A stretch of DNA of 64,000 nucleotides. Origin: Erythrobacter sp. Lineage in GTDB: Bacteria > Pseudomonadota > Alphaproteobacteria > Sphingomonadales > Sphingomonadaceae. The translations under genes and the position numbers were made by a program. Location of the stretch: the NCBI RefSeq assembly GCF_024305245.1, contig NZ_JAMWYX010000010.1:62001-126000 (forward strand), given 5' to 3'. Below are positions 1-27,951 of this stretch, in pieces. The notes under the pieces were generated by a model that was given only the letters and a program-made list of their open reading frames with translations, was not told where the DNA came from and did no database searches. Position 1 is the stretch's first letter, and the number at the start of each line of letters is the position of its first letter.

Positions 1-1593
1 GCCGCTCAATTCGGCGCGGGTGACGAAGGCAACGCTGGACGGATTGATCGCCCGCCCGCCGCGATACATTTCGTAATGCAGATGCGCGCCGGTCGACAGG
101 CCGGTCGATCCGACATAGCCGATCACCTGCCCGCGCCGCACCTGCTGGCCGCGGCTCACCGCCATGCGGCTCATGTGGCAATAGCGGGTGGACAGCCCGC
201 TGCCGTGTTCCAGCCGCACCGCTATGCCGCAGCCGCCGGCGCGCCCGGCGGAACTCACCCGGCCATCGCTGACCGCAACGATCGGCGTGCCGTGACGCGC
301 CCGGAAGTCCATCCCGGCGTGCAACCGGCGATACCCGAGGATCGGATGGCGGCGCATCCCGAAGCCCGATGTGATCGACCCCGGCACCGGCGCCAGCAGG
401 CCGTTGCGCTGCTCGCCCACGCCAGAAGCCTCGTAAAAGCGCCCCTCGCTGCCCCAGCGCATCAGCTGCGTCTTCGGCTCTCCGCCGCGCTCGATTCCGG
501 CATACAGCAGCTGCCCCGCCTGCCGTTCGCCGGTGGCAGCGCGGCGATAGGAAAGGATGATGTCGAATTCGTCGGTGGAGCGAACCTCGCGGTCCATGTC
601 GATCTGGGAATCGAGCGTCTTGAGATAATCCTGCACCGCGCTGGCCGGAACCCCTGCCCGCCGCATCGAGCGGTAGAGGCTGGAGCCGACCGTGCCGCGC
701 ACCCTGAGCGGGGTTTCGTCGACGCGGATGATGTTGCGTTTCAGCGCCAGCGGGCCGTTGGGAACGATGGGCGTGCCGTCTTCAGCAATCTCGCCCACCC
801 CCGGCCGGGTCAGTTCAAGCTCGAGATTGAACCGCGCGCGGAACGCGAGACTATCGAGCGGGCGCGGCTGGCCCGCTGCAATCCGGCGGCCGAGCAGCAC
901 GTCGATCTGCGTCCCCGGTGCGATATCGGCCAGCGGCACCGCCTGTTCGACCAGCGCGGCGGCGCGATCGATGTCCACTGCAGAAACTCCGGCGCGGCGA
1001 AGCATGGTGACGAAACTGTCCCCCGATGCCAGCGTGACGAGCATCTGGATCTGCGGGCGTTCGGGCGCGCTTTTCAGCGGGATCACCTGCCCCGTCGGCC
1101 CCATGCGGCGGCCCGAATCCGCGCCCAGCGCCAGCGGCAGGATCATCTGGCTGCGCAGCTCGCTGGTGACTGCCTTGTCCTGCGGCATCGCGGGCCGGGC
1201 TTCGAGCGGGGTGAGATCGGGCCAGAACGCCAGCGCCAGCGCGCCGAGGCCGACCATCGTGCCCAGCCCGCGGAACCAGCGGCGGCTGCCGATATTATCG
1301 GCCAGATCGGGAGCAAGATCGACGCCGTCGAACCAGCGCGAGGCGGCCAGCTTCCATTCGTCATAGCGTTCGCCCCAGCCATTGACCCGGACAACGACCT
1401 TGCGTTTTGCCGCTTGCGCCTTGGTCGGCGGGGCGAGCTTCTTGGAATTGCGCAGGTAGGGCAGCAGATCGCGCGCGGCCTCCGGGTCGAACGGGGCCGG
1501 ATCGGCCCGGACCAGTGCGCGCGGGTCTTCATCGGCGCAAGGTTCACCCTCTGCCTCGGGCAGATCGTTCATATTGCGCACGTGGTTCAACAT
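1..1593 (-). CDS. M23 family metallopeptidase (peptidoglycan hydrolase), 3' end beyond the window
   Basis: Reading leftwards from ATG 1593, 531 codons are present and the frame is still open at base 1. The first ~90 residues are cytoplasmic and polar. A membrane segment follows (GLGALALAFW, about residues 100-118). Near the C-terminus is a LytM/M23 domain with the zinc-ligand motifs HAGMD and HLHYEM and the usual YCHM between them. The family cleaves peptide cross-bridges of peptidoglycan in the periplasm, or acts as an amidase activator when degenerate. Here the visible zinc ligands are intact. An alternative start is ATG 1572. The gene is divergent from the helicase at 1791; the 197 bp between them hold no clear promoter that I can call. 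Confidence 0.9.
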   Translation of the reverse strand, partial: MLNHVRNMNDLPEAEGEPCADEDPRALVRADPAPFDPEAARDLLPYLRNSKKLAPPTKAQAAKRKVVVRVNGWGERYDEWKLAASRWFDGVDLAPDLADNIGSRRWFRGLGTMVGLGALALAFWPDLTPLEARPAMPQDKAVTSELRSQMILPLALGADSGRRMGPTGQVIPLKSAPERPQIQMLVTLASGDSFVTMLRRAGVSAVDIDRAAALVEQAVPLADIAPGTQIDVLLGRRIAAGQPRPLDSLAFRARFNLELELTRPGVGEIAEDGTPIVPNGPLALKRNIIRVDETPLRVRGTVGSSLYRSMRRAGVPASAVQDYLKTLDSQIDMDREVRSTDEFDIILSYRRAATGERQAGQLLYAGIERGGEPKTQLMRWGSEGRFYEASGVGEQRNGLLAPVPGSITSGFGMRRHPILGYRRLHAGMDFRARHGTPIVAVSDGRVSSAGRAGGCGIAVRLEHGSGLSTRYCHMSRMAVSRGQQVRRGQVIGYVGSTGLSTGAHLHYEMYRGGRAINPSSVAFVTRAELSG

Positions 1594-15050: not shown

Positions 15051-16016
15051 TCAGAATTCGCCGCCGGTGAGGCGCTGGCACACCAGATCGAGCTGATCCA
15101 GCGTGGTGTAGCGGATCGTAATCGTGCCCTTGCGCGGATCGACTTCGGGCTTGATCCGGACGCCAAGCCCCAGAAATTCCTCGAGATGATGCTGCACGGC
15201 GAGAATATCGGCGTTTTCCGCCGGTTCGGCGCGGTGGCCAGCGTTGCGGGCAGCGCCGTCCTTGCCAGCCTTGCGGGTCAACCCCTCCATGTCGCGCACC
15301 GACAGCCCATCGGCCACCGCGATTTCCGCCAGATGCGCGGCATCGGGCCGCCCGATCAGCGCGCGGACATGACCGGTGCTGAGCTTGCCCTGCTCGACCA
15401 GATCCAGCACCCTGTCGGGCAGCGTCATCAGCCGCATCATGTTCGCGACATGGCTGCGCGACTTTTCGACCATCTTGGCGATGTCGACCTGGATCATGCC
15501 CTCGTCTTCGGAGAGCCGGTGATAGGCGCGCGCTTCCTCGACCGGGTTCAGATCTTCGCGCTGCAGGTTCTCGATCAGTGCGAGCGCCATCACTTCGCGG
15601 TCTGTCAGGGTGCGGACCAGCGCCGGGATCTCGTGCAGACGCGCCTTCTGCGCCGCACGCCAGCGCCGCTCGCCTGCAACCAGCTGATAACCGGTGCCTT
15701 CGGGATGGGGCCGAACGATAATCGGCTGGATCACTCCGCGCGTGGCGATCGAGGCCGCCAGTTCATCCAGCGCCGCTTCGTCGAAATGCTTGCGGGGGTT
15801 GCCCGGCAGCGGCTTGATCGTGGCGAGCGCCAACATCCGCAGGGCCGCGCCGCCGGGTGTCGGTGCATCGACAGGCTCTTCGCGCCGGACCAATGGCTCC
15901 TCGCGCCGGGTCTCGCCCAGCAGCGCGCCCAGACCCTTGCCCAACCGCCGCGGCTTTTCCGCAGCCGCGCGCATTGTTGGAGCAGTATCAACGGCTTGAT
16001 CGGTATCTTCGCTCAT
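15051..16016 (-). CDS. parB: ParB chromosome-partitioning protein
   Basis: 321 residues from ATG 16016, overlapping the parA stop (ATGA). Order: N-terminal RLGKGLGALLGE (ParA-stimulating Arg/Lys peptide), ParB/Srx CTPase domain with NPRKHFDEAALDELAASI and the CTP-binding GERRWRA box (about 130), a helix-turn-helix (DIAKMVEKSRSHVANMMRL) that reads parS, and a C-terminal dimer domain. ParB loads at parS, spreads as a CTP-dependent clamp and recruits ParA and, in alphaproteobacteria, PopZ. Seven parS sites lie just upstream of this gene, and a PopZ homologue is at 38.0 kb. Confidence 0.97.
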   Translation of the reverse strand: MSEDTDQAVDTAPTMRAAAEKPRRLGKGLGALLGETRREEPLVRREEPVDAPTPGGAALRMLALATIKPLPGNPRKHFDEAALDELAASIATRGVIQPIIVRPHPEGTGYQLVAGERRWRAAQKARLHEIPALVRTLTDREVMALALIENLQREDLNPVEEARAYHRLSEDEGMIQVDIAKMVEKSRSHVANMMRLMTLPDRVLDLVEQGKLSTGHVRALIGRPDAAHLAEIAVADGLSVRDMEGLTRKAGKDGAARNAGHRAEPAENADILAVQHHLEEFLGLGVRIKPEVDPRKGTITIRYTTLDQLDLVCQRLTGGEF

Positions 16017-16789
16017 GCGGCTTGCCTTTCTGCGGGGAAGCGCCCGATCAATTCGCGCGCCAGGGCCATATAGGCGCGGCTGCCGGTGCAATGCTGGTCA
16101 TAGATCAGCGCGGGCAGCCCGTGGCTCGGCGCTTCGGACAGGCGCACGTTTCGGGGAATGACGGTTTCGAACACCAGCTTGCCGAGGCAATCGCGGACAT
16201 CGTCGGACACCTGATCGGTCAGCCGGTTGCGGCGATCAAACATCGTCAGCGCCACGCCGATGATGCCAAGCCGCGGATTGAAGCGCTGCTGCACCTGATC
16301 GACCGTCTGGAGAAGCTGGCTCAGCCCTTCGAGCGCGAAGAATTCGCACTGCAGCGGCACCAGCAGCGTATCGGCGGCGCACAGCGCGTTCAGCGTCAGC
16401 AGCCCCAAGGACGGCGGACAATCGATAAACGCAATATCGTGGCTGGTATGATTCGCCAGCGCATCGCGCAACCGCGAGGTGCGATCCTCGACCGAAACCA
16501 GCTCGATCTCGGCCCCGCTGAGATCGACCGTTGCTGGTACGATATCCAACCGCGGGATACTGGTCGGCACGATGGCGTCTTCCAGCGCGACTTCGTCGAC
16601 CAGCAGATCGTAGCTCGAGACTTCGCGCGATGCGGCCTGCACGCCAAGCCCGGTCGAGGCGTTGCCCTGCGGATCGAGGTCGATCAGCAGCGTGCGCCAT
16701 CCGGTCGCGGCCATCGCGGTGGCAATGTTGATCGCGGTCGTGGTTTTACCCACCCCGCCCTTCTGGTTGGCAATCGCGATGGTCAGCAT
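16013..16789 (-). CDS. parA: ParA chromosome-partitioning ATPase
   Basis: 258 residues. Deviant Walker A KGGVGKTTT at residues 10-18, the switch region DLDPQGNAS near 38, and FIDCPPS near 121 mark the ParA/Soj family. It is of chromosomal type without an N-terminal DNA-binding domain. It forms ATP-dependent dimers on nucleoid DNA and moves the ParB-parS complex after origin duplication. Translationally coupled to parB by a 4-base overlap. Confidence 0.97.
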   Translation of the reverse strand: MLTIAIANQKGGVGKTTTAINIATAMAATGWRTLLIDLDPQGNASTGLGVQAASREVSSYDLLVDEVALEDAIVPTSIPRLDIVPATVDLSGAEIELVSVEDRTSRLRDALANHTSHDIAFIDCPPSLGLLTLNALCAADTLLVPLQCEFFALEGLSQLLQTVDQVQQRFNPRLGIIGVALTMFDRRNRLTDQVSDDVRDCLGKLVFETVIPRNVRLSEAPSHGLPALIYDQHCTGSRAYMALARELIGRFPAERQAA

Positions 16790-16855: not shown

Positions 16856-17482
16856 TCAGGCCTTCACAATGATTCCCGCATCGGGATCGGTCAAGGAATG
16901 TTTCACGTGAAACATTGCTCGAATCGAAGGTTTCAACGCCTCCAACTCCTGCGCCGCCGAGCGGCCCTTGGGCAAGACATAGGCAGTCGCCGCTGTGGAG
17001 AAGGGTGCGGACAAGCTCAGGAGCTTCGGCAAGGGCGCAAACGCACGGGCGGAAATGGCGCGGGCGGCGAAGGGGGTAACCCGCTCCAACCGCTGCCCTT
17101 CGACCCGGCATTTCCGCAGATCGAGCGCCGCAATGCATCTTTCGAGAAATTCCACCCGGCGCGCCCGGGATTCGACCAGCACCATCGGCATGTTGGGGCA
17201 CAGCGCCGCTATTACCAACCCCGGAAATCCCGGCCCACTCCCGAGATCGAGCCAAGGGCCGATCGCATTCGGCCCCAATGTTTCTCGTGAAACATTTTCG
17301 ATGAGTTGCGCCGAATCGGCAATGTGGCGCTGCCAGATATGCGGCTCGGTCGCCTTGGCGATCAGATTCTGGCGCTGATTCTCCTCCAGCACCAGCGCGG
17401 CGAATGTCGCCATCCGCGCCATTGCGTCCGCATCGGCGAGGGTCGCGACATAGGCGCGGGCCTCCTCTTCAGTCCTGATCAC
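16856..17482 (-). CDS. rsmG: 16S rRNA (guanine-527-N7)-methyltransferase RsmG (GidB)
   Basis: 208 residues from GTG 17482, which overlaps the mnmG stop (GTGA). The SAM-binding motif [14 protein letters not shown] is at about 78-91. RsmG makes m7G527 in 16S rRNA; its loss gives low-level streptomycin resistance. Two parS sequences are inside the gene: one encodes NVSRET at residues 63-68, the other encodes MFHVKH at about 190-195 near the C-terminus. The peptides appear to be dictated by the DNA site rather than by the enzyme fold. Confidence 0.95.
16899..16914. promoter_or_regulatory. parS site 1 (perfect)
   Basis: TGTTTCACGTGAAACA, the exact palindromic ParB-binding sequence. It lies in the 3' part of rsmG. 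Confidence 0.95.
17279..17294. promoter_or_regulatory. parS site 2 (one mismatch)
   Basis: TGTTTCTCGTGAAACA, one base different from the consensus in the left half. It lies in the 5' part of rsmG, where it encodes NVSRET. Confidence 0.85.
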
Positions 17483-19344
17483 GCTGCACGCTGCCCGTCA
17501 GCCAGCCGGCGGCGGGCGTGGACCAGCAGCGCCGACAGTGCAGCGGGCGTCACCCCCGCCACCCGGCCCGCCGCCGCGAGCGTTCCCGGCGCGGCCTTGG
17601 TCAACCGCTCGACCATTTCGTTCGAGAGACCGGGAACCTCCGCAAAGGGGAAATCCGCCGCCAGCGTCAGCGCCTCGCTCGCGCGCAGATCACGCAATTC
17701 GGCATCCTGCCGCGCGAGGTAAGGCGCGTAGGCCGCATCCTCTGCCATCTCCTCGGCCAGCAGCGGGTCCAACGCAGCCACGTCGCCAAGCCATGGGGCG
17801 AGCGCATCATGCGTGATCCCGTCATAGCGGAGCCATTCGGCAATCGGTTTTACACCATGATCGCGCCGTACCGGCAATCCAGCATCGGCCAAGTCGCGGG
17901 AGTGGAGGCACTGCGAATGTTTCACGTGAAACATTTCGCGCAAATTTTCGCGCCGTTCCCACCATGACCTGCGTTCTTCACTCACGCATCCCGCCGCGAT
18001 CCCCAACCCGGTAAGCCGCGTCGCCGCATTATTGGCGCGGAGCCGGAGCCGGTATTCAGCGCGGGAGGTGAGCATCCGATAAGGTTCGGACACGCCCTGC
18101 AAAGTCAGGTCATCCACCATCACCGCGATATAGGAATTGGCGCGATCAAGCGCGGGCGCAGCCCTGCCCAGCACCGCAGCCGCCGCCTCCAACCCGGCGA
18201 CCAGGCCCTGTGCGGCAGCTTCCTCATAGCCAGTGGTGCCGTTGATCTGTCCGGCACAATAGAGACCTGGGATCACCCTCACCTGCAAATCCGGCGTCAA
18301 TGCACGCGGATCGATATGATCATATTCGACCGCATAGCCCGGCTGCACGATTTCGACCCGCGCGCAGCCCGGCATCGTGCGGACAATAAGCTCCTGAACA
18401 TCGACCGGCAGCGAGGTGCTGATCCCGTTGGGATAGACCATGTGGGTATCCAGCCCCTCCGGCTCCAGGAACACCTGATGGCCCTCCCGGTCCCCGAAGC
18501 GGTGGATCTTGTCCTCGATCGAGGGGCAATAGCGCGGCCCGGCCGCACCAATCGCACCTGAAAACAAAGGGGACCGGTGGAGATTCGCGCGTATCGCATC
18601 ATGACCCGCCTGCGTGGTCCGGGTGATCGCGCAGAACACCTGAGGGTTAAGCCGCCGCGGGGTGAGCGGAGACATAGTCCAACTCTCGTCATCCGAAGGC
18701 TGTTCTTCCAGCGCGGCCCAATCAATGGTGCGCCCGTCGAGCCGCGGCGGTGTGCCGGTCTTCAGCCGCGCCATCGGCAGATCGGCAGCGCGCAGCTGCT
18801 GGGCGAGACGCTTTGCGGCGTTCTCACCGATGCGCCCGCCTTCGAACCGCTCCTCGCCGCGAAACAGCACGCCGCCGAGGAACGTGCCGGTGCACAGGAT
18901 CACGCGCGGGGCGTTGAGGATTGTTCCGTCCGCGAGTTCCAGTCCGGCGACCACCCCGCTTTTCAGCACCAGCGCAGCCGCTTCGCCCTGCACCAACATC
19001 AGGTTCTCTTGCGTGCGCACGATTCTCTGCACTGCCGCCTTGAACCGCACCCGGTCGGCCTGCACACGCGGGCCCCAGACGGCGCTGCCCTTGGAACGAT
19101 TGAGCATCCGGTAATGAATCGCGCCGGCATCCGCCGCGCGCCCGATCACCCCGTCGAGCGCGTCGACTTCGCGCACCAGATGCCCCTTGCCGAGACCACC
19201 GATGGCGGGGTTGCAGCTCATCGCTCCGATGGCCTGGAGATCGAAGCTGACCAATGCCGTGCGCGCACCCATCCGCGCCGCCGCGCAGGCAGCTTCGACT
19301 CCGGCGTGACCGCCGCCGATTACGAGGACATCGAAGGAATGCAT
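17479..19344 (-). CDS. mnmG: tRNA uridine-5-carboxymethylaminomethyl(34) synthesis enzyme MnmG (GidA)
   Basis: 621 residues. FAD-binding motif [19 protein letters not shown] at the N-terminus, [20 protein letters not shown] near 50 and [16 protein letters not shown] near 370. With MnmE it modifies U34 of several tRNAs, using glycine or ammonium, FAD and methylene-THF. A perfect parS lies inside the gene and reads MFHVKH near residue 471. The genes mnmE, mnmG, rsmG, parA and parB all run the same way with short or overlapping junctions, as in many bacteria near the origin. Confidence 0.97.
17918..17933. promoter_or_regulatory. parS site 3 (perfect)
   Basis: TGTTTCACGTGAAACA inside mnmG, encoding MFHVKH on the gene strand. 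Confidence 0.95.
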
Positions 19345-19399
19345 GCGGCGCAGATAGGGCTTGGCGCAGGGATCGTCAAAGCCGTTTCATCAGGCAAAA

Positions 19400-19415
19400 T
19401 GTTTCACGTGAAACA
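19400..19415. promoter_or_regulatory. parS site 4 (perfect)
   Basis: TGTTTCACGTGAAACA in the 121-bp gap between mnmG and mnmE, one of a pair whose starts are 39 bp apart. Confidence 0.95.
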
Positions 19416-19438
19416 TTGGCCGCAAGAAATGCCGAAAA

Positions 19439-19454
19439 TGTTTCACGTGAAACA
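19439..19454. promoter_or_regulatory. parS site 5 (perfect)
   Basis: TGTTTCACGTGAAACA in the mnmG-mnmE gap, second of the pair, 12 bp before the mnmE stop codon. Confidence 0.95.
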
Positions 19455-19465
19455 TTGTGCACGCT

Positions 19466-20752
19466 TCACTTGCCGATGCAGAACCGCCCGAACAGCGTGT
19501 CGAGCATATCCTCGGTGGTCGCGCGCCCGATCAGCCGGTCGAATTCGTGCCGCGCACGGCGCAGTTCTTCCGCGATCAGCAGCGGGTCGCTGAGCATCTC
19601 TGCCGCTGCCAAAGCCTCTGCCGCTTCGGCAAGCCGGGCATGTTGACGGGCATTGAGCGCGGCCTCCCCCGGCTTCGGCAGTGTGCCGCGCGCCACTTCG
19701 GCCAACGCGGATTTCAGCGCGCCAAGCCCCTCGCCGGTCGTTGCCGACAAGGTGAACCGCGCCGAAGGTTTGGCTGTGAAGTCGCCGCGATCCGCCTGCG
19801 CCGCAATTTCCCACGCGCCCTGCGGACCCTCGCCTTCCGGTCCGAGCCACAGTACGAGATCGGCGCGCGCCAACTCGCCCCGCGCGCGGTCGATGCCGAT
19901 CGCCTCGATGGCTTCCGCGTGCGCGCCGTCGCGCAGCCCTGCAGTGTCGACAAAGGTAAACGGAACGCCTGCGATACCCACAGACCGCTCGATCACATCG
20001 CGCGTCGTCCCGGCAATGGGCGAGGTGATCGCTGCCTCGCTTTCGATCAAAGCGTTGAAAAGCGTTGATTTGCCCGCATTCGGCGGCCCGGCGAGCACCA
20101 CCCGGTACCCCTCCCCCAACCGCTCCGAGCGCGGACGCGACAGCCAGACGCGCAGTTCGCCCGCCAGCGCGGCAATGTTCCACGTGAAACATTCTGGGAG
20201 GTCGGACGCGTCCTCATCGTCGGAGAAGTCCAGCGCAGCCTCGATCTCGGCCGAGAGTGCGAGTGCACGTTCGCGCCAATCCACCACCTGGCGCGACAAG
20301 GCACCGCCCGCGTTCGCCAACGCGGCGGCGCGCTGCAATTCGGTCTCGGCGGTGAGCAGATCGGCCAGCCCCTCGGCCTCGGCGAGATCGATGCGGCCAT
20401 TGGCGAAGGCACGTCGGGTGAATTCGCCCGGTTCGGCACGGCGCAGGCCGGGGAGTGCCGCCAGCGCCGCCTCTACCGCGGCGATCACCGCGCGCCCACC
20501 GTGGCAGTGCAATTCCGCGAGATCCTCGCCCGTCGCGGTGTTCGGTCCCGGAAACCACAGCGCCAAGGCTTCATCGAGCATTGCCCCGTCCGTATCGCGC
20601 AACTTGACCAGCGCAGCGCGGCGCGGCTCCGGCATCCGCCCGGCCAGCGCAGCCAGCGCGGCTCCCGCCTGCGGCCCGGAAATGCGGATCACACCGATAG
20701 CCGAAGGCGGCGCGCCGCTCGAAAGCGCGAAGATCGTCGGATTCTGGCTCAT
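19466..20752 (-). CDS. mnmE: tRNA uridine-5-carboxymethylaminomethyl(34) synthesis GTPase MnmE (TrmE)
   Basis: 428 residues. N-terminal tetrahydrofolate-binding domain, then a helical domain carrying an inserted G domain with GPPNAGKST near 222, the K-loop/switch I TTRD near 248 and DTAGLRD near 267. The C-terminus is FCIGK, the conserved catalytic Cys motif of the family. It is slightly shorter than the E. coli protein. A one-mismatch parS falls near residue 188 and reads CFTWNI. It partners MnmG, encoded just downstream. Confidence 0.96.
   Translation of the reverse strand: MSQNPTIFALSSGAPPSAIGVIRISGPQAGAALAALAGRMPEPRRAALVKLRDTDGAMLDEALALWFPGPNTATGEDLAELHCHGGRAVIAAVEAALAALPGLRRAEPGEFTRRAFANGRIDLAEAEGLADLLTAETELQRAAALANAGGALSRQVVDWRERALALSAEIEAALDFSDDEDASDLPECFTWNIAALAGELRVWLSRPRSERLGEGYRVVLAGPPNAGKSTLFNALIESEAAITSPIAGTTRDVIERSVGIAGVPFTFVDTAGLRDGAHAEAIEAIGIDRARGELARADLVLWLGPEGEGPQGAWEIAAQADRGDFTAKPSARFTLSATTGEGLGALKSALAEVARGTLPKPGEAALNARQHARLAEAAEALAAAEMLSDPLLIAEELRRARHEFDRLIGRATTEDMLDTLFGRFCIGK
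20176..20191. promoter_or_regulatory. parS site 6 (one mismatch)
   Basis: TGTTCCACGTGAAACA inside mnmE, with one change in the left half-site. Confidence 0.85.
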
Positions 20753-20762
20753 CGCAGCGGAA

Positions 20763-21038
20763 CTATTCGGAGCCCTTCGGCCCTTCGCCGGCCCGCCCGG
20801 TGGAGCCGGACGCCGCCTTCATCCCGCTTTCGACGAAGCTCTGGAACATCTTCAGCCCTACCTGCCCCATCGGCGCCAGGGCCTGCGCATATTGCTGCAA
20901 CTGATCGGGGTTTGAGACGCCCTGCATCGCCTTGGTGATGTTCTCGACATAGACATTATTGGCTGCGCTGACATCGGGCAGGCCCATGAAACTGCGGGCT
21001 TCCTCTGGCGTGCAGTCGATTTCGATGGTGATCTTCAT
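20763..21038 (-). CDS. DUF6489 family small protein
   Basis: 91 residues from ATG 21038 behind a strong AGGAGGA site. It begins MKITIEIDCTPEEARSFMGLPDV and continues as predicted amphipathic helices with a Gln/Met-rich centre. I match this to the DUF6489 family of sphingomonads, which has no known function. A poly(3-hydroxyalkanoate) or phasin-like role is sometimes suspected for such small helical proteins, but nothing here shows it. It lies 10 bp upstream of mnmE on the same strand and may be co-transcribed with it. Confidence 0.82.
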   Translation of the reverse strand: MKITIEIDCTPEEARSFMGLPDVSAANNVYVENITKAMQGVSNPDQLQQYAQALAPMGQVGLKMFQSFVESGMKAASGSTGRAGEGPKGSE

Positions 21039-21140
21039 GGCGCATCCTCCTGTCTGTCCATCCATTTGGGCTTGGCAGCCGAGCAAGGCAAGCGATAGGG
21101 TTCGCCCCGCACCCCTTCCCCCGCAAGCGAGAGAGACATC

Positions 21141-21854
21141 ATGAGCCTCAACGAAACCATCCCCACCCTTGACGGCGCCAATGAAGCTGGCGGGTCCAGC
21201 TTCGGTGCCTATGTCGCCAAGCCCGAAGGCACACCCAAGGCCGCCATCATCGTTATTCAGGAGATTTTCGGTGTGAACCCCGGCATCCGCAGCAAATGCG
21301 ACAAGCTGGCAGCGGACGGATATCTCGCGGTCGCCCCCGATCTGTTCTGGCGGCTTGAACCCGGCGTCGAATTCGATCCCGATGTCGAGGCCGAGTTCCA
21401 GACCGCGCTCGACATGATGGGCAAGTTCAACCAGGACGCCGGCATCCGCGATATCGAGGCGACGATCCACCACATCCGCCGCTCGCTGGGCGTCGCGAAG
21501 GTCGGCTGCGTCGGATACTGCCTTGGCGGGCGGCTCGCTTACATGACCGCAGCGCGCACCGATATCGATGCGAGCGTCGGCTATTACGGCGTCGGGATCG
21601 ACGGATTGCTGGGCGAGAAGCACGCGATCTCCAACCCTCTGATGCTCCACATCCCGACCGAGGACGGCTTTGTTTCACGTGAAACACAGGCAGCGATGCA
21701 CGAAGGGCTGGACGATCACCCGCGCGTGACGCTGCACGACTACGAAGGGCTGGATCACGGCTTCGCCACCGAAACCGGCAAACGCCGCGACGAAGAAGCC
21801 GCGACCCTCGCCGACAGCCGGACTGCCGCCTTTTTCGCCGAACATCTGGGGTGA
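21141..21854 (+). CDS. Dienelactone hydrolase family protein
   Basis: 237 residues. Alpha/beta-hydrolase with the nucleophile elbow GYCLGG near residue 130 (Cys nucleophile, as in dienelactone hydrolase) and the histidine in DHGFA near 215; the early Glu sits in IVIQEIFGVN. Members open lactones or cleave esters in the cytoplasm. A perfect parS (21671-21686) is embedded and encodes FVSRET at about residues 177-182. RBS GAGAGA lies before the ATG. The stop overlaps the GTG of the next gene. Confidence 0.9.
   Translation: MSLNETIPTLDGANEAGGSSFGAYVAKPEGTPKAAIIVIQEIFGVNPGIRSKCDKLAADGYLAVAPDLFWRLEPGVEFDPDVEAEFQTALDMMGKFNQDAGIRDIEATIHHIRRSLGVAKVGCVGYCLGGRLAYMTAARTDIDASVGYYGVGIDGLLGEKHAISNPLMLHIPTEDGFVSRETQAAMHEGLDDHPRVTLHDYEGLDHGFATETGKRRDEEAATLADSRTAAFFAEHLG
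21671..21686. promoter_or_regulatory. parS site 7 (perfect)
   Basis: TGTTTCACGTGAAACA inside the dienelactone hydrolase gene. It is the site nearest to the putative origin, about 4.5 kb away. Confidence 0.95.
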
Positions 21855-25127: not shown

Positions 25128-26156
25128 TCAACCCCTAGCCGGGTTTCTGAGGGCCGCAAGCAGTTCCTCGACATGCGGGATCGGGGTGAATTGTCCGATT
25201 CCGTGGCCGAGGTTGAACACATGCGGGCGATCCTCGAACGCGTCGATGATCGTCCGAACCCGCTCGGCCATGGCCGGACCGCCGGCTTCGAGCAGCAACG
25301 GATCGAAATTGCCCTGCACCGGCATGCCCGCAGGCAGGCTGGCATGCGCCCAGGCCGGATCGAGCGTTTCGTCCAGCCCGACCGCATCCACCCCGGTTTC
25401 GCGCGCATAGGACGGCAGTTTTGCGCCCGCGCCCTTGGGAAAGCCGATCACCGGGGTGTCGGGATGCGAAGCCTTGAGCTGCGCGGTGATCGCCGCATTG
25501 GGGGCGACCACCCACTTTTCGAACTGGTCGGGGGCAAGGCTGCCCGCCCAGCTGTCGAACAACTGCACCGCCTCGGCACCCGCATCGATCTGACCGCGCA
25601 GGTAGGTGACCGAAACTTCGATGATCGCATCCACGATTGCCTGCATGTGCGCCGGATCGCGGTACGCCAGCAGCCGCGCCGGGCCCTGATCCTTCGAGCC
25701 CTGACCTGCGATCATGTAGGTCGCGACCGTCCAGGGGCTCCCCGCAAAGCCGAGCATCGTCACTTCCGGCCCGATCAGCGCGCGGGTGCGGCGCACGGTC
25801 TCGTAGACCGGTTCGAACCGCTCGAACGCAGGTGTGAAGCTGTCGAGCCCGGTTTCCAGCAGCGTCGGCGACAGGTGCGGCCCTTCACCAGCCTGAAACG
25901 TCAGCCCCTGCCCCATCGCATGCGGCACGATCAGGATATCGGAAAACAGGATTGCCCCGTCGAACCCGAACCGCCGGATTGGCTGCACGGTGATCTCGGC
26001 TGCGGCCTCGCTGTCGTAAACCAGTTCGAGGAACCCGCCCTTTTCGGCCCGGAGTTCCCTGTATTCAGGCAGATAGCGCCCGGCTTGGCGCATCAGCCAG
26101 ACGGGGGCAACGTCCTGACGGACACCATTGAGCGTATCGAGAAGCGGACCGGGCAT
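25128..26156 (-). CDS. hemE: Uroporphyrinogen decarboxylase HemE
   Basis: 342 residues. Motifs PVWLMRQAGRYLPEYRE near 18, SDILIVPHAMG near 77, GFAGSPWTVATYMI near 135 and FNLGHGIGQFTPIPHV near the end match the family. It decarboxylates the four acetates of uroporphyrinogen III. RBS AAAGGA precedes ATG 26156. It forms the left flank of the putative replication origin, as in Caulobacter and Rickettsia. Confidence 0.97.
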   Translation of the reverse strand: MPGPLLDTLNGVRQDVAPVWLMRQAGRYLPEYRELRAEKGGFLELVYDSEAAAEITVQPIRRFGFDGAILFSDILIVPHAMGQGLTFQAGEGPHLSPTLLETGLDSFTPAFERFEPVYETVRRTRALIGPEVTMLGFAGSPWTVATYMIAGQGSKDQGPARLLAYRDPAHMQAIVDAIIEVSVTYLRGQIDAGAEAVQLFDSWAGSLAPDQFEKWVVAPNAAITAQLKASHPDTPVIGFPKGAGAKLPSYARETGVDAVGLDETLDPAWAHASLPAGMPVQGNFDPLLLEAGGPAMAERVRTIIDAFEDRPHVFNLGHGIGQFTPIPHVEELLAALRNPARG

Positions 26157-26503
26157 AGGGTTCCTTTAAACAAAACTAATCTAATTATAAAAGGATTGAT
26201 GGAGTCTGTTGGCCCTGTGGATAGCGGGAATTACCGGCGCTTGCCGGATTATGCCCAAGCTGAACAGGACCGAATGCCCCCACCGAATCCGCAAGGGACC
26301 GAGGTCAAGCAAGCTTTATCCCCACTCTTCCCAGCCTGTCGACAAGACTTGTCCCGTGTGCGCAAATACCCCCCACCGAATGCCTGTCAGCGGGGACTTA
26401 AATCGCTCCCCTGCTTGTTAGCCCCGCTGTCCCGTGGTTTATGCGGGGTTCTGTCCACAGCCTCCACCCCCTGGCCCGAATCCGGACCGCGAGCGCTCAA
26501 CTC
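26157..26503. other. Putative chromosomal replication origin oriC
   Basis: A 347-bp gene-free gap between divergent hemE and PPSR, the conserved position of the origin in Caulobacter and Rickettsia. Seen in it: an AT-rich block at 26161-26200 (32 of 40 A/T), candidate DnaA boxes CTATCCACA (26216-26224, minus strand, one mismatch to TTATCCACA), TTATCCCCA (26316-26324, one mismatch) and CTGTCCACA (26451-26459, two mismatches), and GANTC methylation sites at 26285 and 26478. Seven parS sites lie 4.5-9.5 kb to the left. No ORF with coding character fills it. The promoters of hemE and PPSR must also lie here. Confidence 0.75.
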
Positions 26504-27349
26504 ATGAACCGACTCAATCTGCATCTGGTATCGGATTCGACCGGCGAGACGCTGGAAATGATCGCGAAAGCCGCGCTGGCGCAGTTCGACGATCCCGATG
26601 TCAGCCGCCATTTCTGGCCGATGGTCCGCTCGCTTCAGCATCTCGACCGGATCGTGCCCGATCTCGCCGCGCATCCGGGGCTGGTGCTGTACACGCTGGT
26701 CAATCCCGAAACCCGCAAGCGGCTGGAGGAGCATTGCCGCCATCTCGGCCTGCCAGCGGTCGCGGTGCTCGATCAGGTGACCGCCGCACTGGAAGCGCAG
26801 CTGGGGCAGGAGGCGCATGGCCGTCCGGGCCGTCAGCACATGATGGACGAAAGCTATTTCAAGCGCGTCGATGCGATCCAGTACACCATCGCCCATGATG
26901 ACGGGATCGGATACGAGGAGTGGGAAGAGGCCGATATCATGCTGGTGGGCGTGTCGCGGTCTTCCAAGACCCCGACCAGCATCTACCTCGCCAATCGCGG
27001 CTTCAAGGTCGCCAATATTCCGCTGGTGGTCGAAAGCCCGCCGCCACCTGCCTTGTATGGGCTCAGGCACCCGCTGGTGGTCGGCCTCACCACCTCGCCC
27101 GAACGGCTGGTGCAGATCCGCCGCAACCGGCTGCTGTCGCTGAACGAGGCGACCGAGACCGCCTATGTCGACAATGACCGGGTGAAGGCCGAATTGCAGT
27201 TCGCGCGGCGGATGTTCGCCGATCATGGCTGGCCGGTGATCGATGTCACCCGCCGCTCGATCGAGGAGACGGCCGCCGCGATCATCCGCCTGGCACAGGA
27301 ACGCCACCGCCGCCCGCCGAGCGAGGGCGGCGTGGGGAAACCGATATGA
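26504..27349 (+). CDS. Pyruvate, phosphate dikinase/PEP synthase regulatory protein (PPSR, DUF299)
   Basis: 281 residues from ATG 26504 (MNRLNLHLVSDSTGET). An in-frame ATG at 26441 would run back into the presumed origin. The P-loop-like GVSRSSKTPTSIYLANRG near residue 148 and the N-terminal SDSTGET are family marks. The enzyme is a bifunctional ADP-dependent kinase / Pi-dependent pyrophosphorylase that switches PEP synthase or PPDK off and on. In alphaproteobacteria it is the first gene right of the origin (RP001 type). It overlaps maf by ATGA. Confidence 0.94.
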   Translation: MNRLNLHLVSDSTGETLEMIAKAALAQFDDPDVSRHFWPMVRSLQHLDRIVPDLAAHPGLVLYTLVNPETRKRLEEHCRHLGLPAVAVLDQVTAALEAQLGQEAHGRPGRQHMMDESYFKRVDAIQYTIAHDDGIGYEEWEEADIMLVGVSRSSKTPTSIYLANRGFKVANIPLVVESPPPPALYGLRHPLVVGLTTSPERLVQIRRNRLLSLNEATETAYVDNDRVKAELQFARRMFADHGWPVIDVTRRSIEETAAAIIRLAQERHRRPPSEGGVGKPI

Positions 27350-27951
27350 CCGCCGCGCACGCGCCGCGCCTGATCCTCGCCAGCAAATCGGCTTCGCGCC
27401 GGGCGATGCTGGATGCCGCCGGGGTGGCGTACGAAGCGGTGCCTGCCGATATGGACGAGCGTGCGGTGGAGGCAGGGCTGGCGGGCGCGGCCCCCGGCGA
27501 GGTGGCCGAGGCGCTGGCGGTCGCCAAGGCGGCGGCGGTGGCGGCGGCCCATCCGGGCGCGCTGGTGCTGGGTTCGGATTCGCTGGTGGTTGCAGGCGGG
27601 CGGCGGTTCGACAAGCCGGGTTCGGCCGAGGAAGCGGGCGAGCATCTGCGGTTCTTCTCGGGACGCATGATGGAACTGCATAGCGCCGCGGCTCTGGTGC
27701 GAGACGGTGGATGCGAGTGGAGCCATGCCAGCATTGCCCGCCTGCACGTGCGCGATCTGTCGGATGATTTCATCGCGCACTACCTGAGCCTCGAATGGCC
27801 CGAAATCGGCCACACCGTCGGCGCATTCCGGATCGAGGGGCCGGGGGTGCAGCTGTTCGATCATATCGAAGGCGACCAGTTCACCGTGCTGGGCATGCCG
27901 TTGCTGCCGCTACTGGGCGCGCTGCGCGAGGCCGGGGTGCTGCTGGCATGA
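27346..27951 (+). CDS. maf: Maf family nucleoside triphosphate pyrophosphatase
   Basis: 201 residues. The N-terminal LILASKSASRRAMLDAAGV and the central GSDSLVV (with the catalytic Asp) and ARLHVRDLS blocks are Maf. The enzyme hydrolyses dTTP/UTP or modified pyrimidine nucleotides as housecleaning, and in some bacteria it restrains septation. The N-terminal loop differs slightly from the usual SxSPRR. Overlaps both neighbours by ATGA, in the operon PPSR-maf-aroE-coaE. Confidence 0.92.
   Translation: MTAAHAPRLILASKSASRRAMLDAAGVAYEAVPADMDERAVEAGLAGAAPGEVAEALAVAKAAAVAAAHPGALVLGSDSLVVAGGRRFDKPGSAEEAGEHLRFFSGRMMELHSAAALVRDGGCEWSHASIARLHVRDLSDDFIAHYLSLEWPEIGHTVGAFRIEGPGVQLFDHIEGDQFTVLGMPLLPLLGALREAGVLLA

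Follow-up and report, generated by a model that had tools for sequence, protein, structure and literature searches.

The window analysed here, a stretch of 64,000 nucleotides, is part of a 138-kb contig in a 3.5 Mb genome assembled in 24 contigs. Within it, hemE (25128..26156, minus strand) and the gene for a pyruvate, phosphate dikinase/PEP synthase regulator (PPSR, COG1806; 26504..27349, plus strand) diverge from a 347 bp intergenic gap (26157..26503), which gene context, composition, conservation and skew mark as the proposed oriC. NCBIfam gene calls agree with the flanks given in an earlier sequence-only reading, namely hemE on one side and PPSR-maf-aroE-coaE-dnaQ on the other. The nearest named relatives of the PPSR protein belong to Erythrobacter and Porphyrobacter, with 95% identity to that of Erythrobacter sanguineus. 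Of 80 named loci, 77 have the divergent hemE-PPSR pair, with a gap of 301–437 bp; the remaining three have the PPSR start 32–374 bp from a contig end, and hemE was not found in them. An Rfam search of region 25500–27500 gave zero matches at the gathering score.

Immediately 5' of the hemE start codon, the gap opens with a candidate DNA unwinding element (DUE) at 26161..26200. This AT-rich block had been described as 80% AT over 40 bp and is indeed the most AT-rich 40-mer in the window; nowhere else is 0.8 reached. Across 55 genus gaps, the 45 bp following the hemE start average 72% AT versus 44% in the rest of the gap. Across the 64 kb, four sites match the DnaA box TTATCCACA with at most one mismatch, where shuffles predict 3.05, and two of these lie in the gap, at 26216 on the minus strand and 26316 on the plus strand. 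At up to two mismatches the gap holds five of the window's 68 sites, none of them perfect, a density reached by 0.16% of 347-bp windows across the 64 kb and exceeded by none. The cluster noted earlier stands, with five sites instead of three DnaA-box-like 9-mers. The count of GANTC sites likewise rises from the two first reported to three (26202, 26285 and 26478).

These elements fall into conserved blocks. The first GANTC, GAGTC at 26202..26206, is a CcrM-type site by sequence, and 37 of the 55 gaps have TGTTGG no more than three bases after it. It adjoins the block TGTTGGCCCTGTGGATAG (26207..26224, minus strand), which includes the DnaA-box-like CTATCCACA (left box, 26216–26224, minus strand) and recurs as GTTGG.CCTGTGGA in 51/55 gaps. 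The second GANTC site (CGAATCCGC, 26284..26292) reads by eye as GAATC or GACTC in all 27 rows of an alignment drawn from 27 of the first 30 genus genomes. A central block (26304..26345, plus strand), in which TATCC[CT]C and CTGTCGA lie 12 bp apart in 33 of the 34 gaps with both, contains TTATCCCCA at 26316 (plus strand), a W-like site with the Caulobacter W-box word TCCCCA, and the weak DnaA-like TGTCGACAA at 26337 (minus strand). Finally, the block TCCCGTGGTTTATGC (26430..26444, plus strand) precedes the DnaA-box-like CTGTCCACAG (right box, 26451..26460, plus strand), where GTTTAT and TCCACA are 11 bp apart in 47 of the 50 gaps with both.

For the comparison, 61 genus genomes including our own yielded 58 loci (without G005, G036 and G056) and 55 gaps, since the loci of G034, G035 and G053 end before hemE. 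The single-contig record of G053 (C1) stops 25 bp past the start of PPSR, which means that its zero point was probably set in the hemE-PPSR gap. Among the 55 gaps, GTCAA occurs in 53, TATCC[CT]C in 43, CAG.CTGTCGA in 39, T[GAT]TCCACA in 44 and CCGTGGTTTAT, the relaxed form of the TCCCGTGGTTTATGC block, in 54. GANTC is present one to six times in every gap (55/55; 1.3 expected from composition). The distance from CTGTCGA to GTTTAT is 92–94 bp in 39 of the 41 gaps with both, and that from the left box to the W-like site is 94–96 bp in 36 of 42. Between the blocks the sequence drifts, while most of the 55 gaps keep both blocks and spacings; because spacing is near-fixed while sequence drifts, the arrangement suggests a single cooperative protein array.

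Consensus sites are scarce in the same gaps. The exact TTATCCACA box is present in one of 55, and 16 of 55 hold no box at up to one mismatch. Full CtrA sites (TTAA-N7-TTAA) were found in none of the 55 genus gaps and none of 77 named gaps, and the IHF consensus in none (strict) or one (loose) of the 55, a search that degenerate sites could escape. Exact boxes per gap in the named set, with groups assigned here from record titles and some broadly titled MAGs included, average 0.02 in 51 Erythrobacter/Porphyrobacter-like gaps, 0.10 in 10 from other Erythrobacteraceae or of unclear placement, 0 in 11 Novosphingobium-like gaps, 1.0 in three from Sphingomonas and 2.5 in two from Sphingobium. The exact TCCCGTGGTTTAT word occurs once, and never twice, in each of 62 of 197 Sphingomonadales genomes, against 11 matches for a reversed-pattern control in the same genomes. 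It is found in 12 of the 15 genus genomes of that draw (G015, G017 and G057 are without the exact form), and the six of the 62 matches that could be placed from a known PPSR coordinate (G000, our own genome, and G002, G022, G038, G041 and G055) all lie in the gap just upstream of PPSR. The TCCCGTGGTTTATGC block may represent either a DnaA site that has diverged or part of a promoter.

The main alternative is that the gap is a shared hemE/PPSR promoter region and nothing more, its blocks serving as promoter or regulator sites and the origin lying elsewhere within ~100 kb. Divergent genes do require two promoters, TTGTTA-17-TTTATG from 26415 could, judged by eye, be a weak sigma-70 promoter, and nearby origin places are compatible with the resolution of the skew data given below, but a promoter region sits poorly with long-range spacings such as CTGTCGA-92..94-GTTTAT in 39/41 gaps, and with the presence, in gene surroundings like those of the Caulobacter origin, of both the AT maximum of the window and its densest group of DnaA-like sites. 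We regard this alternative as improbable, and allow that part of the gap conservation could reflect the hemE and PPSR promoters.

Because our own genome is in contigs, evidence from GC skew was transferred from two complete congeners, G018 and G025, each sampled in 20 stretches of 20 kb and analysed with a two-breakpoint fit and 40 shuffles. In both, skew is by and large negative before PPSR and positive after it, and reverts on roughly the other side of the chromosome, apart from some exceptions. The best-fit origin is at 320–400 kb in G018 (gap at 414 kb; mean signed skew 0.0141, shuffle maximum 0.0110) and at 500–550 kb in G025 (gap at 491 kb; 0.0171, shuffle maximum 0.0119), and each best fit exceeds all 40 of its shuffles. 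When the fit is constrained to an origin at the gap and a terminus opposite it, mean signed skew comes to 0.0124 in G018, where 32 of 40 pieces show the expected sign, and to 0.0115 in G025, where 29 of 40 do; the G025 value is just under the largest optimised shuffle fit of 0.0119. Neither best-fit range strictly contains the gap; the unsampled intervals limit resolution to ~100 kb. A skew minimum far away had been named as the finding that would speak against an origin here; in G018 and G025 the sign switch lies within ~100 kb of the gap. Inside the window itself the cumulative minimum is broad and lowest at 34–36 kb. An E. coli-type dif consensus at up to three mismatches was found in none of 11 genomes, so the terminus was not placed by this route.

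The dnaA gene lies ~412 kb from PPSR in G018, ~490 kb in G025 and ~451 kb in G003, and is therefore no marker of this place; the distance exceeds 400 kb in G017 as well. An origin at dnaA, as in many bacteria, is highly improbable: the records of complete congeners G017, G018 and G025 start within 0.5 kb of dnaA, but in G018 and G025 no less than 300 kb separates the gene from the fitted skew switch, the only dnaA match of our own genome is on contig C19 and not on the window's contig, and the parABS cluster lies by hemE.

Taken together, the skew, the conserved blocks with near-fixed spacing, the gene order, the adjacent parABS and the distant dnaA support the earlier interpretation of the hemE-PPSR gap, and we put the probability that 26157–26503 is the chromosomal origin at roughly 0.93. 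Counting against this reading are the lack of an exact DnaA box in 54 of 55 gaps and of a strict IHF consensus in all 55, the coarse skew resolution and the broad minimum inside the window. The figure draws on sequence anatomy, conservation, spacing and congener skew, and the binding and firing steps are predictions from them. DnaA-ATP would assemble cooperatively on phased weak sites, namely the left box at 26216, the W-like site at 26316, TGTCGACAA at 26337 and the right box at 26451; the complex would then open the AT-rich block beside hemE, from which replisomes would depart both ways. Low-affinity boxes would tie initiation to the DnaA level in a Caulobacter-like manner, without CtrA gating through consensus sites, and the GANTC sites may let CcrM methylation signal replication state. 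New origins would be segregated by the parABS cluster 4.5–9.2 kb to the left.

This cluster consists of parB (15051..16016, minus strand; NCBIfam profile match), parA (16013..16789, minus strand; AAA_31, a ParA/MinD-type ATPase by profile match) and seven parS sites located by motif search at 16899, 17279, 17918, 19400, 19439, 20176 and 21671 (16899..21686). Five of the seven are exact copies of TGTTTCACGTGAAACA and two have one mismatch, where shuffles give 0.08 sites at up to three mismatches. They measure 4,471–9,243 bp from the gap, in line with the 4.5–9.5 kb first estimated. With parA, parB and a parS cluster near the proposed oriC, the system is of the chromosomal ParABS kind.

Copies of parS are also found far from this cluster. 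The exact form TGTTYCACGTGRAACA occurs 14 times in our own genome, six times in the ori cluster and eight times on other contigs (C1, C5, C12, C18, C19, C21 and C22). Among 88 genus genomes including our own, exact parS number 1–5 in 51 and 10–69 in 37, with none between; of 247 genomes examined across the order, 23 are of the genus and the other 224 have 0–7. On a PPSR tree of 55 genomes (23 high and 32 low; those of the 58 rows with a parS count), the many/few label needs two changes compared with ~18 when shuffled, and a single many-parS clade is not rejected (p-AU 0.32). The odd one in the FastTree topology is G030, with three sites and low support. The complete genome of G018 has 47 of its 55 parS outside the ori cluster; counted by successive quarters of the way from origin to terminus, these number 16, 10, 11 and 10. 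For G003, where the count took in 45 of 46 dispersed sites (TTC/GAA form), the corresponding numbers are 16, 10, 13 and 6. Neither distribution can be distinguished from uniform, so a Noc-like site-free terminus is unsupported. Titles and abstract openings in the open-licence literature yielded no prior report of dispersed chromosomal parS in Erythrobacter or its relatives.

The placement of dispersed sites was examined in detail for all eight in our own genome, 20 of 46 in G003 and 28 of 47 in G018. Only six of these 56 sites lie inside genes (1/8, 3/20 and 2/28, respectively), against 77–81% coding in the flanks by a simple codon-based gene finder. Both neighbours were called for 49 intergenic sites, and 30 of these are at convergent gene ends (p about 1e-10 at 19%, with the baseline taken from two genomes, in which convergent gaps make up 19% of intergenic bases in G018 stretches and 17% in G025 stretches). 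Outside the ori stretch, the sampled parts of G018 and G025 hold four and five exact copies of their own form, two and two with one mismatch, none with two, and two and none with three; the reversed control at three mismatches gave two and none. Since near-matches are scarce and at control level by three mismatches, the dispersed parS represent a sharp motif and not a decaying repeat. Binding of half-parS by ParB is described in Pseudomonas aeruginosa (PMC10419367).

Ten pairs of sites have neighbourhoods that can be aligned between genomes. As read from the coordinates, the two sites of eight pairs sit in equivalent intergenic positions that agree to within tens of bases, and in the other two pairs, L041/L245 and L222/L046, the positions differ by about 130 and 430 bp; the immediate flanks of orthologous sites have mostly diverged. 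In five G003/G018 pairs, four of them in the same place, G003 has TGTTTCACGTGAAACA and G018 has TGTTCCACGTGGAACA, both half-sites having changed together. The symmetry is seen in orthologous G018 and G003 sites such as L047/L229 and L053/L231, which pair TTTC/GAAA with TTCC/GGAA. The CC/GG form of G018 is present at 52 of its 55 sites, including seven of eight in the ori cluster, and because the symmetric change is common to the ori cluster, ParB is the probable reader of the dispersed sites. In addition, CCCCTTAG/CTAAGGGG-like words, perhaps a gene-end motif, lie by eye ~10–30 bp from many intergenic G018 sites (e.g. L046–L052 and L232–L247).

Three other explanations were discarded. Loss of SMC does not explain tolerance of many parS, as SMC scored over its cut-off in 12 of 12 genomes, six from each group. 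A mobile repeat is likewise rejected: blastn of the 56 3-kb flanks (E <= 1e-20, >= 200 bp) gave 10 pairs, all between genomes, with shorter shared flanks checked by eye. A general terminator was also dismissed; in sampled stretches including ori-proximal sequence, parS is the commonest perfect 16-bp palindrome (11 of 30 in G018, 10 of 17 in G025). Several dispersed sites sit within longer palindromes, and at some convergent ends the sites may additionally serve as terminators.

The ParB of our own genome has nucleoid_noc as its best NCBIfam match by E-value, at 194.5 bits and below the cut-off of 315 for that model, and scores 187.8 bits against parB_part, over the cut-off of 58.45. Inspection by eye shows that it keeps the ParB-type residues equivalent to R173 and G201 (following the logic described in PMC7383237), and no Noc-like N-terminal helix is evident by eye in its ordinary-looking N-terminus. 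ParB comparisons covered 10 of 12 proteins in the alignment and all 12 in the helix-turn-helix segment, which reads AN[MV][MH]RLM in six of six many-site ParBs and AN[LI]QRLL in six of six few-site ParBs, a difference that could be plain ancestry. In G003 and G010, with 54 parS sites each, the ori-linked ParB is the sole TIGR00180 match and no Noc paralogue was found besides it (one ParB-like match each). Other genomes, our own included, carry weaker extra ParB-like genes; G018 has two pairs of such matches below the family cut-off (C1, 1130351–1131837 and 1819984–1821322).

On these sequence comparisons we lean, somewhat beyond even odds, towards a reading in which 10–69 dispersed parS are kept by selection in one clade and read by the ori-linked ParB, which would act chromosome-wide besides segregating the origin. 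ParB binding and function at these sites we infer; by analogy, we propose Noc-like timing of division or SMC loading at many points as the chromosome-wide role. If true, a chromosome-wide ParB/parS system would be an exception to the rule that parS sites stay close to oriC. Comparison with the congeners that have 1–5 sites offers a direct test of how many centromeres are tolerated or used. The dispersed parS are the novel part of this work and matter more than the origin, which is itself of an already known type.

In line with this, a hemE-region origin has precedents in Caulobacter, where it was identified experimentally, and Rickettsia (PMC1914354). An oriC near hemE is reported for Sphingopyxis granuli TFA, and DoriC predicts the same for most Sphingomonadaceae it contains (PMC4741004), so the earlier statement that sphingomonad genomes usually leave their origins unannotated was only partly right; Novosphingobium PP1Y also has an oriC predicted near hemE (PMC4059872). 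It follows from these sphingomonad and Caulobacter precedents that the origin described here is an ordinary, well-supported case, and it provides a defined locus for replication work in Erythrobacter and Porphyrobacter. Like the Caulobacter crescentus Cori, with its weak DnaA boxes and defined G- and W-boxes (PMC4468827, PMC4285127), it has the same flanking genes, an AT-rich stretch of ~40 bp and parS within about 10 kb (PMC1914354, PMC5815017, PMC4285127), as well as multiple weak DnaA sites, one of them with the W-box word TCCCCA (PMC4285127). Unlike Cori, the Erythrobacter gaps are without TTAA-N7-TTAA CtrA sites (0/55) and strict IHF consensus (0/55), and in our sequence the left box reads CTATCCACA and the right box CTGTCCACA, in place of the G-box TGATCCACA (PMC4285127, PMC4468827). 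The proposed oriC thus suggests an origin of the hemE type that operates through weak DnaA sites and has no CtrA consensus sites. The predicted oriCs of Sphingopyxis granuli TFA and Novosphingobium PP1Y share the hemE-proximal position and DnaA boxes, with a putative DUE in Sphingopyxis, whereas the passages describing them do not mention a phased block set, the TCCCGTGGTTTAT block or a near-absence of exact boxes. As for the dispersed sites, an extra mid-arm parS cluster is described as harming Caulobacter cells (PMC5815017), yet genomes of the clade carry tens of single parS on both arms. Noc of Bacillus subtilis similarly has tens of palindromic sites, about 70 NBS, around most of the chromosome (PMC4331003), whereas the sites here are parS itself.
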